This document shows, piece after piece, positions 59,157 through 63,990 of a DNA stretch of 64,000 nt. The notes under the pieces were generated by a model, which saw only the letters and a list, made by a program, of their open reading frames with translations, made no database searches and was not told the origin of the DNA. The first letter of the stretch is position 1. Every line of letters begins with the position of its first letter. A program made the position numbers and the translations under genes. Source of the DNA: Streptomyces sp. GS7 (GTDB taxonomy: Bacteria; Actinomycetota; Actinomycetes; Streptomycetales; Streptomycetaceae); assembly GCF_009834125.1 (NCBI RefSeq), contig NZ_CP047146.1, positions 8,586,501-8,650,500 on the forward strand, given 5' to 3'.

Positions 59157-59230
59157 CGGGGTGTAGCGCAGCTTGGCAGCGCGCTTCGTTCGGGACGAAG
59201 AGGTCGTGGGTTCAAATCCCGCCACCCCGA
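59157..59230 (+). tRNA. tRNA-Pro (anticodon CGG)
   Basis: A complete 74-nt cloverleaf has acceptor arms CGGGGTG and CACCCCG with discriminator A, anticodon stem CTTCG/CGAAG closing the loop TTCGGGA (anticodon CGG), and T-loop GGTTCAAATCC. CCA is not encoded. tRNA-Pro genes are known integration sites of the pSAM2 family of actinomycete elements, and an integrase lies 2.4 kb to the right, so the 3' half of this gene is the probable attachment site. Confidence 0.97.
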
Positions 59231-59245
59231 CTGAAGGAACACCAG

Positions 59246-59284
59246 GTCAGGGGCCTGATCCACTCAGTGGATCAGGCCCCTGAC
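59246..59284 (+). terminator. long palindromic terminator of tRNA-Pro
   Basis: Two perfect 18-nt arms (59246-59263 and 59267-59284) are separated by only 3 nt and followed by TCGTTT. It begins 16 nt after the tRNA end. Confidence 0.85.
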
Positions 59285-59469
59285 TCGTTTCCAGGGCCCT
59301 TTTGGGAGCCGTTTGGGAGCCGACTTCGGGATGCGGCTCCCAGCGGGCTCCCCGCTCTGGGCGGCGGGCTTGCGAGTTCTCACCGTGTGCTGACCGCGAG
59401 TGGCCGTTCTGACACCATTGCTGGCACTGGTCGTCTTGCGCCGCTTCCCGCCGCCGGAGGTCTATCGCC

Positions 59470-61458
59470 ATGCCGCTACAAGCCGCGGATCACCGTCGGG
59501 TTCAAACGGCAGTCATAGGCAGTAAAGACTCCGATCTCGCGATCATCCTCCCCATGGAGGCGGCAGAGCTGACGCGCTGGCGGCAACAGCACCCCAGGTA
59601 CACGTATTGGTGCGGCACGCTGCTCGGCGGCTGCGGAGAGCCGCTGACCGACCGCCGCTATCACTCGAAGGTCTGCCACTTCGCGCACCACCCACATCAC
59701 ACCTGCACTCGCACAGCCAATGGGGAGGACAGCGCCGACCACCTGTTCATGAAGCGGGCCCTGCACAACTGGATAGGGAGCCAGGGCTTCAAGGGGGCAG
59801 TGCATCTACACAAGAACACCGCCGCCCCCGGCAGCACGATCGATGTCGATCTGCAGGGCAGCCCGCGTCGGCTGCGTTTCCGTCTGCGGCCGGACAACAG
59901 TGGTTCATGGGGGCTCGGTTCCGACAAGGCAGACGCCCTGGGTGAGGGGGAAGCAGATTGGATCTTCGGGCTGGGTGGCCCCACGCCTGAGGAGTTTCTG
60001 GACGACGCCGGCTATGTCTTCCGCATCCGGTTCGAGACCCAGGGAGCCGAGCGGTGCCCCTACCTCGGCGTACAACAGCGCGGTCGGGCCCCCGAGTGGA
60101 CGCCGTTCGCCGACGCGGCCCTGACGGTCGACGGACTTTCGACGCCAGCAGTCGAGGAGATCCGAGCCGCGCGCAGACGGTCCAAGGCGGGCACCGGAAG
60201 CAGCGGCACACGAAAGCCATCGCCCGAAACATCGCTCGCTGAGCGCCGAACGGTTCGGCACATGAACCAGGAAGAACTGGTCGTCGCACTTCGAGACGCC
60301 TTGGAGCTGGACGCGCGCTGGGCGATCAAGCCCACCTGGGAACGCCTGGGTCAGATGATCGGCGTGGACTTCAGCCGGTACAGCGACGCGGATCTCGTCG
60401 GACTGCTCACCGAGGTCGACACCCCGTTCTCACAGGATGATCCCGTGCTGTCTGCCCTCATACGGACCAACGCCAGCGAGCCGCTGCCGTACCTGGTCCG
60501 CGTCCTCGACGGCCTTGGGCTGGGCAGGCCGTCATCAGCTCCTCACCTGAAGCGGTGGGCACAACGGGAAGCGGACCGCGCGTTCGCGAAGTACGGGATC
60601 CCCGCACGCACAATGCCACCGACGCTGCCGCTCGATGCAGCAGTGCCCGAGGTCCCCGTCGTCCTCCCTCACTCCCCTCGCCGGGGCGCAACCGCGCGGA
60701 ACCGACGGTCTGTCACACAGCACGACCAGACGCCCACTGCTTGGAAGCGTCTGCAACGTCTGATCACCGAAGGGCAGGAGTTGCTCGGTGGCACACGGGG
60801 CAAGAGTGCTGCGCGCCTGAAGCGAGAACTCCGAACCGCACGCCGTTTATTGGAAGGCACACGGCGCACCCGGCTCAACAGTCGCGGGCTCAATGTCCTA
60901 TGGGAGACGAGCGCTCTGCTTGAGACTGCGATCGCGGGGGCTCGGAAGGCAGCCCATCAGAACCAGAAGACATCCGGCGAGGGTAGAGGGCCGAGCCCCT
61001 CGGTTGAGCCGTCGAAGCCGGATGACCAGCAGCGTGCCGCCCGGCCCTCGAAGGTCAAACGGACTGCTGTCCCGGTCTCAAGCCAAGATCTACGCCAGCG
61101 GCTGATCTCCGTCGCGCAGGCAGGCAGCACCACACACTGGCTGCTGCTGGCCGGCGGAAAGAGCACTCCACAGGAAGTGCGCCTCACGCTGCTGTCACAG
61201 GCCGAGGACCGCTCGGAAGGCGACGCACCGCTGCTGTCTGCCTTGGTCGTGGCTCCCGACGGCGGCCCGGTCCCGTACTTCCGGGAGATTCTGAAGAGCG
61301 TCGGACTCGCTGTGCCACAGTCCAACGAAGCGCTGTTGAAGATCTGGCACCGCGAGCAGGAACGCGCGCACGCAGCCTACGCGGACCCTCCTCGGCCAGT
61401 ACCGCCCAGACTTGTCCCCAGGAAGGCCGCTGCCGACGCTGCGCAGAAGCCCGCCTGA
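59470..61458 (+). CDS. CoiA-like protein with a duplicated C-terminal module
   Basis: The N-terminal 200 residues resemble competence-protein CoiA-like families: YWCGTLLGGCGEPL then CHFAHHPHHTC, which could bind zinc, then DSADHLFMKRAL and a beta-rich block (GAVHLHKN...STIDVDL) like the restriction-type nuclease core of CoiA. Two related modules follow, at about residues 270-380 and 535-650; both read D-x-P-x-LSAL, then PY(L/F)xx(V/I)L, a GL-x-x-P-x-S segment, and an REx-x-RA(F/H)A repeat end. Codon 460 is TTA, so translation needs the bldA tRNA. ATG at 59470 follows GGAGG. It is 662 aa. Function is unknown; nuclease or DNA-processing activity is an inference only. Confidence 0.7.
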   Translation: MPLQAADHRRVQTAVIGSKDSDLAIILPMEAAELTRWRQQHPRYTYWCGTLLGGCGEPLTDRRYHSKVCHFAHHPHHTCTRTANGEDSADHLFMKRALHNWIGSQGFKGAVHLHKNTAAPGSTIDVDLQGSPRRLRFRLRPDNSGSWGLGSDKADALGEGEADWIFGLGGPTPEEFLDDAGYVFRIRFETQGAERCPYLGVQQRGRAPEWTPFADAALTVDGLSTPAVEEIRAARRRSKAGTGSSGTRKPSPETSLAERRTVRHMNQEELVVALRDALELDARWAIKPTWERLGQMIGVDFSRYSDADLVGLLTEVDTPFSQDDPVLSALIRTNASEPLPYLVRVLDGLGLGRPSSAPHLKRWAQREADRAFAKYGIPARTMPPTLPLDAAVPEVPVVLPHSPRRGATARNRRSVTQHDQTPTAWKRLQRLITEGQELLGGTRGKSAARLKRELRTARRLLEGTRRTRLNSRGLNVLWETSALLETAIAGARKAAHQNQKTSGEGRGPSPSVEPSKPDDQQRAARPSKVKRTAVPVSSQDLRQRLISVAQAGSTTHWLLLAGGKSTPQEVRLTLLSQAEDRSEGDAPLLSALVVAPDGGPVPYFREILKSVGLAVPQSNEALLKIWHREQERAHAAYADPPRPVPPRLVPRKAAADAAQKPA

Positions 61459-61550: not shown

Positions 61551-61613
61551 GTTCCCTGAGGGAACACGCGGCCTGTTCCCTCAGGGAACAGCCTGCTTGT
61601 CCCCTGAGGAAAC
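61551..61613. repeat. three 15-bp palindromes at an exact 24-bp period
   Basis: GTTCCCTGAGGGAAC (61551-61565), GTTCCCTCAGGGAAC (61575-61589) and GTCCCCTGAGGAAAC (61599-61613) start exactly 24 bp apart with 9-bp spacers. The first two are perfect apart from the central base, the third has one changed pair. They lie between the stops of the convergent CoiA-like and integrase genes, 39 bp from the integrase end. Confidence 0.85.
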
Positions 61614-61651: not shown

Positions 61652-63166
61652 CTACTGGACACCCGCGCGTGCGCGCAGGAGCTCGTTGAGCACACGCACC
61701 GGCGATATGGGACACATCGAGAGCCGAGCGTCGAGTGCCGCCTCCCACTGCTCGGTCAGACCGGCCATGAGGCGCCGACGCATGCCGGGCGTGACGTGGG
61801 CGTAGCGCGCCGAGACCGATCCGTCGAGGTGGCCCATGCGCTCGTCCATGAGGACCTTCTCGGTGCCGAGGTCCTCCATCATCGTCCGGTGTGTGTGACG
61901 GAGGCCGTGGGGCGTGAGGCCCTTGGCAATCGGGAGCCAGCAAGTGTCGGCCCGTTCGCTGGCATTGCGTCCTCGTGCCGGAACGCCGGGCCACGGCTCA
62001 CCGAGCAGCGGCACGGGCCTTGCCTCCTGCGGGGCCTTCTTCGGATACCAGCCGGAGGCCGCCGGGGTGAACAGCCAGGTGGCAAAGCCGTTTCGACGCC
62101 AGTGAGCCGCGTGCCCAGACACCGCACCGCACCGCACGAACCCAAGGTCGGCGATGGCCTGCTCCACACGCGCTCGCGTAGCTTCAGCGACCCGGTCGGG
62201 GCGGTTGAGGACGTTGGACACCGTCCCCGTGGAGACCCCGGCCAGGCGCGCGACGTCGACAAGCTTTGCCCCCTGGTGACCACCGGTACGTGCCGCACCC
62301 TGTCCTCGGAAGACGTACGTCCTGCCATGGCACGGGCACGGCGTCGGCTTCGTACGGGCGATGTGGTTGGCGACCAGGGCGGACAGCCAGACCGTCGAGT
62401 CGATGGTGCGGTAGCTGTCGTCCTTGGGCGGGCAGCGCAGCAGCTCGCCGGTGTCGAGTTCGTACAGCTGCCACTCGACGCGGAACGCTCCGGGGCGGAC
62501 GAACTCGGTTTCCAGGCCGACGATTTCGCCCCAGCGCTTGCCGGTGTACCCCTTGAGGACCACGGCGACGAACTCGTCGTCGCGGCCGGAGAGCAGGGCA
62601 GCCCGCTCGGCGGTCAGCAGAATGCCGAGCGCGTCGGTGATGACCTTCTCCGGGCCACGGCCACGGGAGCGGCCGGCGCGCTTGCCGCGCCCACGCCGCC
62701 TGGCCGCCGGATTGGACGCGATCAGGCCCTCGTCGATCGCGTCCTCGAAGATCAGGTGGAGCGTCGAGCGCCAGGTCTTGACGCTGGAGGCCGCGTACAC
62801 GGCCTTCTCCTTCTTCTCCCACAAGTCGACGTCCGTGCGCAGGACGCCCGCGAGCGCCTTGTCCTCGAACTCGGGGAGCAGATGCTCCTCGATGTGGCGC
62901 CTGTAGTTCTGCATCGTCGAGGCAGCCAGATCCTGGGCCTCGTACCAGCGGCTCGCGTACTCGCCGAAGGTCTCCTGGCCCAGTGCCGGGTCGCGCCAGT
63001 CGCCCCGTCGGTACTTGTTCTCGGCCTCGCTCGCGGCGCGCTGGGCCTCGCCCTTGGTCGCGAACCTGATCGCCTTGCCGCTCTCGTCGACGACCGTGAG
63101 GTGCTTGCTGGGCGCGATCTTGTACCGGCCGCGCCAGTAGTTTCCGCGCTTCTCCGCGAAACCCAA
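61652..63166 (-). CDS. int: tyrosine integrase with an inserted LacI-type helix-turn-helix
   Basis: This phage-type recombinase integrates the element. An N-terminal arm-binding part (GFAEKRGNYWRGRYKIAPSK), a SAM-like core-binding domain and the catalytic domain are present: Arg about 211 in YTGKRWGE, HGLRHTH (about 419-425), MGHLDGS and the nucleophile Tyr about 455 in ARYAHV. Between the first Arg and the HxxR box, residues about 299-345 read KLVDVARLAGVSTGTVSNVLNRP and continue as a complete LacI-family DNA-binding domain. TTG at 63166 is chosen with GGAGGA upstream, 504 aa; no ATG is available nearby. It follows the excisionase-like gene by 47 bp. Confidence 0.9.
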   Translation of the reverse strand: MGFAEKRGNYWRGRYKIAPSKHLTVVDESGKAIRFATKGEAQRAASEAENKYRRGDWRDPALGQETFGEYASRWYEAQDLAASTMQNYRRHIEEHLLPEFEDKALAGVLRTDVDLWEKKEKAVYAASSVKTWRSTLHLIFEDAIDEGLIASNPAARRRGRGKRAGRSRGRGPEKVITDALGILLTAERAALLSGRDDEFVAVVLKGYTGKRWGEIVGLETEFVRPGAFRVEWQLYELDTGELLRCPPKDDSYRTIDSTVWLSALVANHIARTKPTPCPCHGRTYVFRGQGAARTGGHQGAKLVDVARLAGVSTGTVSNVLNRPDRVAEATRARVEQAIADLGFVRCGAVSGHAAHWRRNGFATWLFTPAASGWYPKKAPQEARPVPLLGEPWPGVPARGRNASERADTCWLPIAKGLTPHGLRHTHRTMMEDLGTEKVLMDERMGHLDGSVSARYAHVTPGMRRRLMAGLTEQWEAALDARLSMCPISPVRVLNELLRARAGVQ

Positions 63167-63213: not shown

Positions 63214-63576
63214 CTACGCGACGGTCTCGTACTGGGTACGGCGCGGCGGCCGAGCCCGCAGACGCCCCGTCGTCAGGACCGCAGTAGGCCGACGAAGCTG
63301 GGAGACACGGGCTCGTGCGGCGGGAGGTGTCGCCCCTGCCGGAACGGCAGCCGCGTCGTCGGGGGATCGTGTCGGGCGCTCCTCGTAGAGGCGGACGATC
63401 TCGGCCAGGTGTTCGGCGGTGAAGCGGTACGCGCGGCCGACGCGGGTGTGCGGAATGAGGCTGCGACGGGCGCGGTCCTTGACCCACCAGGCAGAGCAGC
63501 CGAGGGCCTCGGCGATCTCCTCGGGGAGGTAGAGGCGGGGCAGTGTCGACGCGGTGTGCGGGAGGGCAGGAGGCAT
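63214..63576 (-). CDS. xis: excisionase-like winged-helix protein
   Basis: This 120-aa protein has the MerR/excisionase-type DNA-binding motif RLYLPEEIAEALGCSAWWVKDRARR then HTRVGRAYRFTAEHLAEIV, followed by an unstructured Arg/Pro/Ala-rich tail. Position directly upstream of the integrase fits a recombination directionality factor. ATG at 63576 is chosen; a TTG five codons upstream is possible. Confidence 0.82.
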   Translation of the reverse strand: MPPALPHTASTLPRLYLPEEIAEALGCSAWWVKDRARRSLIPHTRVGRAYRFTAEHLAEIVRLYEERPTRSPDDAAAVPAGATPPAARARVSQLRRPTAVLTTGRLRARPPRRTQYETVA

Positions 63577-63738
63577 GGGCTCTTGGCGCAAGAGGGTTCC
63601 TATCTGGAGCGATGGTGCGAGGGGGACGCACCGGGGTGGATCGCTCGGGTACGTACGGGCGAGGGAAGTGGGAGGTGGCGGAAGGGTGTTGCCCCGGTCA
63701 CCGACTGCTCGGCGGGAGCGATGCAGCGTCTGCGGCGG

Positions 63739-63990
63739 CTAGCACTCCCCGGCGAGCAGGGCCAGCGGGGAGACGCCGAGGGCGGCCGCGATGGCGACGA
63801 GGTCGTCGACGTCGCAGCGTCGGCGCCGGCGTTCGATGCGGGAGATGGTCGTAACGGTCATGGGGCGGCCCAGCTCGGTCGCGCGGGCGGCCAGCTGTCT
63901 TTGAGCGATTCCGCGCATGGTGCGGGCGCGCTCGATGGCGCGGGCGGTCCGATTTCCGGCCGGGCCTATTTCAAGAGGGTTTTGCTGCAC
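63739..63990 (-). CDS. XRE-family helix-turn-helix regulator
   Basis: The 83-aa product is a single XRE domain: RARTMRGIAQRQLAARATELGRPMTVTTISRIERRRRRCDVDDLVAIAAALGVSPLALL. The loop before the recognition helix is slightly longer than usual. It may be the repressor of the integrase/excisionase genes or the end-region regulator of the element. GTG at 63990 is 10 bases from the window edge, so its ribosome site is not visible. Confidence 0.8.
   Translation of the reverse strand: MQQNPLEIGPAGNRTARAIERARTMRGIAQRQLAARATELGRPMTVTTISRIERRRRRCDVDDLVAIAAALGVSPLALLAGEC

Follow-up and report, generated by a model that had tools for sequence, protein, structure and literature searches.

The DNA analysed here, referred to as the window, is a stretch of 64,000 nucleotides from Streptomyces sp. 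GS7 (NZ_CP047146.1, positions 8,586,501 to 8,650,500) that carries, at 61652..63166 on the minus strand, the gene of a tyrosine integrase (504 aa) with a DNA-binding headpiece of the LacI type inside its catalytic domain. The gene starts with a TTG codon at 63166 that is preceded by GGAGGAAG, a GGAGG-type site, and that aligns with the TTG, GTG and ATG starts of relatives. The LacI headpiece comprises residues 302-346 (62132..62266, minus strand; residue numbers follow P0001, one above the count from the start codon, and codon positions were verified) and was identified by AlphaFold2, Foldseek and Pfam, with a PF00356 match at residues 303-345 (E 5.1e-16, 58.6 bits, cut-off 27) that greatly exceeds chance expectation. 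It is placed after R212 and K249 and ahead of H421-x-x-R424, H447 and Y456, with its junction between the motifs YVFRG and HWRRNGF of the catalytic domain. An earlier note, made from the sequence of the window, had described a LacI helix-turn-helix between the first catalytic Arg and the HxxR box, and this assignment is borne out by the Pfam match.

Outside the headpiece, the integrase has the core-binding and catalytic fold of a tyrosine recombinase with all of its catalytic residues (R, K, HxxR, H and the Tyr nucleophile) present, and the AlphaFold2 model (99 sequences) displays this fold with a mean predicted local distance difference test (pLDDT) score of 87.1. An N-terminal arm-binding-like region (residues 2-60, 62990..63166, minus strand) consists of three strands and a helix in the model and matches Arm-DNA-bind_4 weakly (E 0.13, below the cut-off). 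It is followed by a core-binding SAM-like domain (residues 67-160, 62690..62971, minus strand; PF14659, E 9.6e-6; PF22022, E 1.9e-5, below its own cut-off), and the C-terminal Phage_integrase match also stays below its own cut-off. A total of 332 related sequences, which are no random sample, were aligned, and 314 of these, the window included, carry the LacI domain. Among the 314, R212 (62534..62536, minus strand) and K249 (62423..62425, minus strand) are invariant, the HGLR box H421-R424 (61898..61909, minus strand) retains its His in 312 and its Arg in 308, and H447 and the nucleophile Y456 (61802..61831, minus strand) are each found in 313 with one gap. Each catalytic residue is thus kept in at least 308 of the 314 sequences, as expected from the earlier note, and the recurrence of the same arrangement in 314 sequences with catalytic residues kept contradicts an artefact of two fused genes. 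Based on the kept catalytic residues, the copies of the attachment (att) core and the repeat blocks at the element ends described below, an active-type enzyme is predicted; the location of the integrase gene (int) beside an att core in plasmid records and IMG/VR contigs would indirectly support recombination activity.

The headpiece forms a separate three-helix unit in the AlphaFold2 model (helices 303-310, 314-322 and 329-342) that is looped out of an intact catalytic core, the independent fold for which the earlier note had proposed structure prediction; the stretch 292-298 has a pLDDT under 50. When the isolated segment was compared with known structures in Foldseek, the top 40 matches were all LacI-family chains (31-56% identity, best E 6e-3). 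The claim of a full helix-turn-helix with hinge holds for the three-helix headpiece, which is complete, and fails for the hinge: position 353, equivalent to AA-54 by our own numbering, is His in the window and Leu in only 59 of the 314 LacI-bearing sequences. According to the available part of a study of the LacI/GalR family, this Leu lever is Leu in 82% of the family (PMC2978694). No periplasmic-binding-protein-like ligand domain was found among the Pfam matches of the integrase at E up to 1. As judged from these comparisons, the module is a hinge-less LacI headpiece with its three helices complete, and, with neither hinge lever nor ligand domain, it is expected to recognise a half-site and not to work as a repressor dimer of the classical kind. 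A CxCH motif before the insertion (C278, C280, H281; 62327-62338) and a His after it (H356; 62102-62104) may together form a metal site at the loop base. C278 and C280 are present in all of 227 aligned sequences (including P0129, which lacks the headpiece) and in most of the LacI-less sisters aligned, and a metal site tied to the headpiece was rejected because both Cys residues occur in most of these sisters too.

LacI-bearing integrases are widespread. PF00356 was found in 120 out of 120 among the relatives listed (of 1272); a Streptomonospora member as query gave 119 out of 120 among the matches listed (of 289), and a LacI-less sister gave 106 out of 120 among those listed (of 954). The hosts named include Streptomyces, Kitasatospora, Nocardiopsis, Lentzea, Saccharopolyspora, Micromonospora and Actinomadura. 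Nearly full-length copies are present in 15 of 61 genomes (the window's own and 60 others of the genus), two of them with stops (G043 and G011), and in none of the 39 genomes outside the genus in the same sample. The integrase also occurs on the plasmid records phiM2 and pSITFR-21c, which by name and gene content are probably phage-plasmids, and on IMG/VR virus contigs (33 loci, of which 31 were looked at and 18 aligned). Among the loci L259, L262, L263 and L265, which are LacI-bearing by alignment, the last three are so by Pfam as well. In a collection of phage records, 15 records matched over less than half of the query each and none past residue 296, so that the headpiece was found in none. 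A Jiangella protein (P0228) is named LacI family transcriptional regulator and has no LacI domain; the name was probably passed on by similarity. Many members of this widespread integrase family are filed in databases as LacI regulators, and P0228 illustrates that this extends even to a LacI-less member.

Sister integrases lack a stretch that corresponds approximately to residues 290-354 (62108..62302, minus strand), as seen in alignments and split matches. In a class-wide search of 394 genomes, 18 of which matched, the sister matches break near residue 291 and resume near residue 352 with little or no spacer. Aligned LacI-less sisters read YVFRGRYG-GAHWRRSGF or similar where LacI-bearing members read YVFRG, the LacI domain and AAHWRRNGF, and Pfam found no LacI domain in the three LacI-less sisters tested. 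A tree calculated without the module columns (36 LacI-bearing and 24 LacI-less sequences) needs at least seven changes, three of them forced by starred branches, and an approximately unbiased (AU) test with 51 rows rejected an arrangement with all LacI-bearing rows on one side of a branch (p 4.65e-33); both used a quick method on selected rows (60 in the tree, 51 in the AU test). The phylogenetic comparison thus indicates repeated gain or loss of the module at this one junction. Either a single old gain followed by losses or several independent gains may lie behind this, as the tree does not separate gain from loss. Three sister integrases in G305 and G296 (L205, L207 and L208) carry another insertion of ~70 residues (HRFLVAALKRR...) just before the same junction, a hint at a hot spot for added modules.

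Selection on the module was assessed in 61 Streptomyces genes (63 of 80 related loci and the window, with three genes that contain in-frame stops excluded) by the ratio of nonsynonymous to synonymous polymorphism (pN/pS). The recognition helix (S-T-G-T-V-S-N-V-L-N, residues 313-322, 62204..62233, minus strand) has a pN/pS of 0.018 (pS 0.29, pN 0.005) and ranks 9 out of 494 segments by pN and 10 by pN/pS, with the segment of the Tyr nucleophile ranking alongside. The corresponding values are 0.25 for the whole headpiece, 0.32 for residues 323-346, 0.17 for the core-binding domain, 0.19 and 0.12 for the two catalytic parts and 0.46 for the arm region. Linker 2 drifts (0.42) whereas linker 1 does not (0.11). 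In the 314 LacI-bearing sequences S313 is kept in 306, T316 in 310, S318 in 310 and N322 in 308. The triad 314/315/319, which by our own mapping corresponds to the specificity positions AA-15, AA-16 and AA-20 in the available part of PMC2978694, is T-G-N in 219 of the 314, V-G-N in 16 and various in the rest. The T-G-N triad occurs in none of the seven parsable LacI regulators of the same genome, in which the first two triad positions are VA, KS, EA, ES, IT, EA and TA (seven regulator loci and the integrase were parsed from 14 PF00356 places). The substitution pattern indicates that the recognition helix is under strong purifying selection. That a repressor headpiece was captured by accident and is kept without function would fit its repeated gain or loss; the selection test contradicts this passive insertion, as the helix is held constant despite free synonymous change and is kept even in relatives at ~40% identity, which makes such an explanation extremely improbable.

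A structural role, in which the module has given up DNA reading in favour of contacts with a host factor, the excisionase or an adjacent protomer, agrees with the loss of the hinge, with the constraint on linker 1 and with the LacI-less sisters, which manage without the module. In addition, an excisionase-like gene adjoins the integrase gene in 91 of 94 stretches (all LacI-bearing loci, the window's own included, some genomes twice). The 91 stretches contain a tblastn match to the HTH_17 gene within 2.5 kb upstream of int; the gene in the window lies at 63214..63591 on the minus strand (PF12728, E 1.6e-5; TIGR01764, E 5e-4; both below the cut-off). The constrained part of the headpiece is, however, the helix that contacts bases (pN/pS 0.018 vs 0.32 for residues 323-346), and a pure protein contact is regarded as quite unlikely.

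The attachment gene of the element is a tRNA-Pro(CGG) gene at 59157..59231 on the plus strand, and the same tRNA gene lies antisense on the 3′ side of int in 13 of 15 loci, the window's own included. Among 80 genome-contig loci, which partly represent the same genomes as the 15, tRNA-Pro(CGG) was found within 10 kb in 58, tRNA-Thr in one and no tRNA in 21. The int-proximal att copy is a 101-bp block from the anticodon loop to past the tRNA 3′ end (59189..59289, plus strand); its first 73 bp are identical to the distal copy, from which it differs by five mismatches in all. The distal copy lies outside the window (G000:C1:8676591-8676691), and as the two copies are 30.9 kb apart the element is ~31 kb long. 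Direct repeats were found at the element ends in 7 of 13 loci (blocks of 43-104 bp) and also in G305a; they start in the anticodon loop (TTCGGGA) or a few bases earlier and reach at least the tRNA 3′ end. At least two copies of the att core are present in 18 of 19 LacI-bearing genomes searched, and the remaining genome (G011, in which int contains stops) has one.

The same core is used without the headpiece. The element of the LacI-less sister in G308b measures 57.6 kb and occupies the same tRNA-Pro(CGG) gene, again with this core, and in G207, LacI-less by Pfam, the core is found at two places 55 kb apart around int; further LacI-less sisters adjoin tRNA-Val(CAC) or tRNA-Ala(CGC). Conversely, L262 (recognition helix SETVVATVLG) and L265 (SEAAAYVALG), in which Pfam finds the LacI domain with E 3e-9 and 1e-6, have Pro(CGG)-type cores beside int. 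Members with the T-G-N or V-G-N triad are associated with Pro(CGG), Pro(GGG) and Ala(CGC) cores, which suggests that their helix should read something that the elements share and not the attB core. The same core is shared by integrases that have the headpiece, by some that lack it and by some whose recognition helix differs. These comparisons uncouple the helix from the attB core in both directions, and the headpiece does not appear to set the core. They bear on the possibility that the headpiece recognises the outer flank of a core half-site and thereby determines the choice of tRNA gene. The insertion adjoins a helix that is equated here with the one holding lambda Int residues 282-287, which we take to be the lambda/HK022 specificity residues, and this location would suit such a core extender. 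The shared tRNA-Pro(CGG) core of the LacI-less sisters, the Pro(CGG)-type cores of L262 and L265 with their very different recognition helices, and the three tRNA cores of the T-G-N and V-G-N members make it very unlikely. The headpiece is thus disfavoured as a selector of attB, and targeting as raised in the earlier note is not favoured in the sense of the attB core; a coupling to the control of recombination, also raised there, may still apply.

The integrase might alternatively repress its own supply, with the headpiece bound to an operator at the regulator-xis-int promoter. The strong selection on the recognition helix and the repressor type of the headpiece, as judged by its LacI-family matches in Foldseek, are compatible with autoregulation, and repressors with the tyrosine-recombinase fold exist, as described for MrpR in the available part of PMC10516654 (MrpR 8a0a and SroF 9rd5 are among the matches listed). 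An operator had been suggested at 61551-61613, where GTTCCCTGAGGGAAC-type inverted repeats lie downstream of int (61551..61613). This candidate was rejected, as the palindrome is not conserved: 0 of 80 related loci have it in the 1 kb that follows int downstream; half-site operators without a palindrome were not searched for. A recurrent palindrome upstream of int, GCCGGTTNNCCAAACCGGC, is mostly found near −760 to −880 (78 and 77 of the 80 loci were used in two scans), and matches anywhere within 2.5 kb upstream occur in 53 of 77 loci, some of them far from −800. This palindrome follows the gene of an HTH_3 (Cro/CI-type) regulator, which in the window lies at 63739..63990 on the minus strand (PF01381, E 8.8e-10): among the 94 stretches 53 have both, 22 have neither, 15 have HTH_3 only and four have the palindrome only. 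It was set aside as an operator of the LacI integrase in favour of the neighbouring HTH_3 gene, which it tracks. A palindrome GCCGGTTAACCAAACCGGC lies upstream of HTH_3 genes, near the start of the regulator-xis-int gene group, and is also HTH_3-associated (e.g., at −795 of int in L088). With these palindromes set aside and the hinge lever for dimeric operators lost, autoregulation is considered unlikely.

The selection on the helix, the disfavoured attB core and the lack of a conserved operator among the palindromes searched leave, by inference, a site in the att arms as the best remaining place for the headpiece to bind. The preferred reading, held tentatively and with somewhat less than even confidence, is that the headpiece acts as an accessory reader: it would recognise the att DNA of the element and so aid assembly or direction. 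Each protomer would use the headpiece as an extra DNA reader and bind a site in the element's own att DNA (the arm or flank of attP, attL or attR) rather than the attB core, and this binding would help to assemble the synaptic complex or set its direction. Several observations weigh against this reading. LacI-less sisters integrate at the same site, so that the headpiece is dispensable for the reaction as such, deep lineages carry other recognition helices, and the constraint on linker 1 means that the helix is not the sole conserved part of the insertion. A comparison of attP-left arms (28 LacI-bearing and four LacI-less) revealed no motif peculiar to LacI-bearing elements that holds across lineages; in this comparison the G029 row is one of three copies in its genome and may not be a true arm, and in L253, L255, L256 and L261 the att core is oriented oppositely relative to int. 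In many elements CTGACCTGC is located ~20 bp from GCAGGT(CA) at a similar distance from the anticodon-loop core, and these pairs occur in arms both with and without the headpiece. Farther out, the arms of Streptomyces members and L252 contain 11-bp direct repeats (ACCAAC...ACCAAC) that may be excisionase sites; according to the available part of PMC7498355, direct repeats one helix turn apart are usual for excisionases. As the former pairs are present without a headpiece and the latter repeats are excisionase-like, neither can be assigned to the headpiece, and the motif CCGnACCT beside the core is not common to LacI-bearing members of other lineages. The T-arm (GTTCAA) was a further candidate for a headpiece site.

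A broader and somewhat unlikely extension of the accessory-reader interpretation is that the strand-to-helix loop is a natural plug-in socket, which could take up or lose a headpiece while the tRNA target stays the same, giving each protomer a second, independent DNA reader for element-specific sites that would switch between integration and excision. If true, headpieces with other helices (L262, L263, L264 and L265) would read other sites.

Between the att block and int, the window contains an open reading frame (ORF) of 662 aa (59470..61458, plus strand) with a CoiA_N match below the cut-off (E 0.018). The distance from int to the tRNA varies among elements from ~120 bp (G055) to ~15 kb (G038), so that this stretch looks like a cargo slot, and the ORF is probably cargo. 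PADLOC gave no match for four proteins, the 662-aa product included. The element ORFs tested include those for an O-like replication protein, a dCTP deaminase, a glycosyltransferase, a major facilitator superfamily transporter and a glyoxalase-like protein, and no transfer gene was found among the tested part of the ORFs (10 each in two largely overlapping sets). For a comparison with pSAM2-type AICEs, defined here by RepSA/RepAM and an FtsK-like transfer gene, these ORFs thus offer the O-like replication initiation protein.

In this integrase a DNA-reading domain of a known type has become part of the catalytic domain of a tyrosine recombinase whose active-site residues are kept. The site of the insertion suggests a position at which a recombinase can accommodate an additional DNA-binding domain. 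Since relatives that have the headpiece and relatives that lack it occur naturally at one and the same att core, the function of the headpiece is directly accessible to experiment.

Phage and integrative and conjugative element tyrosine integrases (PF00589; e.g., lambda Int and Tn1549 Int) share with the window integrase the core-binding and catalytic fold, the R-K-HxxR-H-Y residues and an att site at a tRNA 3′ end; we know of no headpiece in the catalytic domain of lambda Int or Tn1549 Int. The Streptomyces element pSAM2 attaches at a tRNA-Pro and thus uses the same kind of attachment gene, and its integrase is presumably shorter and without a LacI domain. LacI/GalR regulators share the three-helix headpiece with the window integrase, which differs from them by the missing hinge lever, by the lack of a ligand-domain match and by T-V-S-N in place of the dominant T-V-S-R. 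In the available part of PMC3218068, actinobacterial elements are described as using tRNA sites and a LacI regulator is named once, in a figure legend; the titles and abstract beginnings listed in searches of open-licence PMC papers indicate no LacI domain inside a tyrosine recombinase, and the word LacI is absent from the accessible main text of a classification of tyrosine recombinases (PMC8138268). In MrpR and SroF of SPbeta-type phages the recombinase fold also meets a repressor role, whereas the catalytic residues are intact in the window integrase. Integron and Tn916/Tn1549-type integrases likewise carry an extra segment inside the catalytic fold that is essential or shapes DNA, as far as described in the available part of PMC8138268, but these insertions are a specific segment or beta-strands, whereas the insertion in the window integrase is a whole DNA-binding domain.
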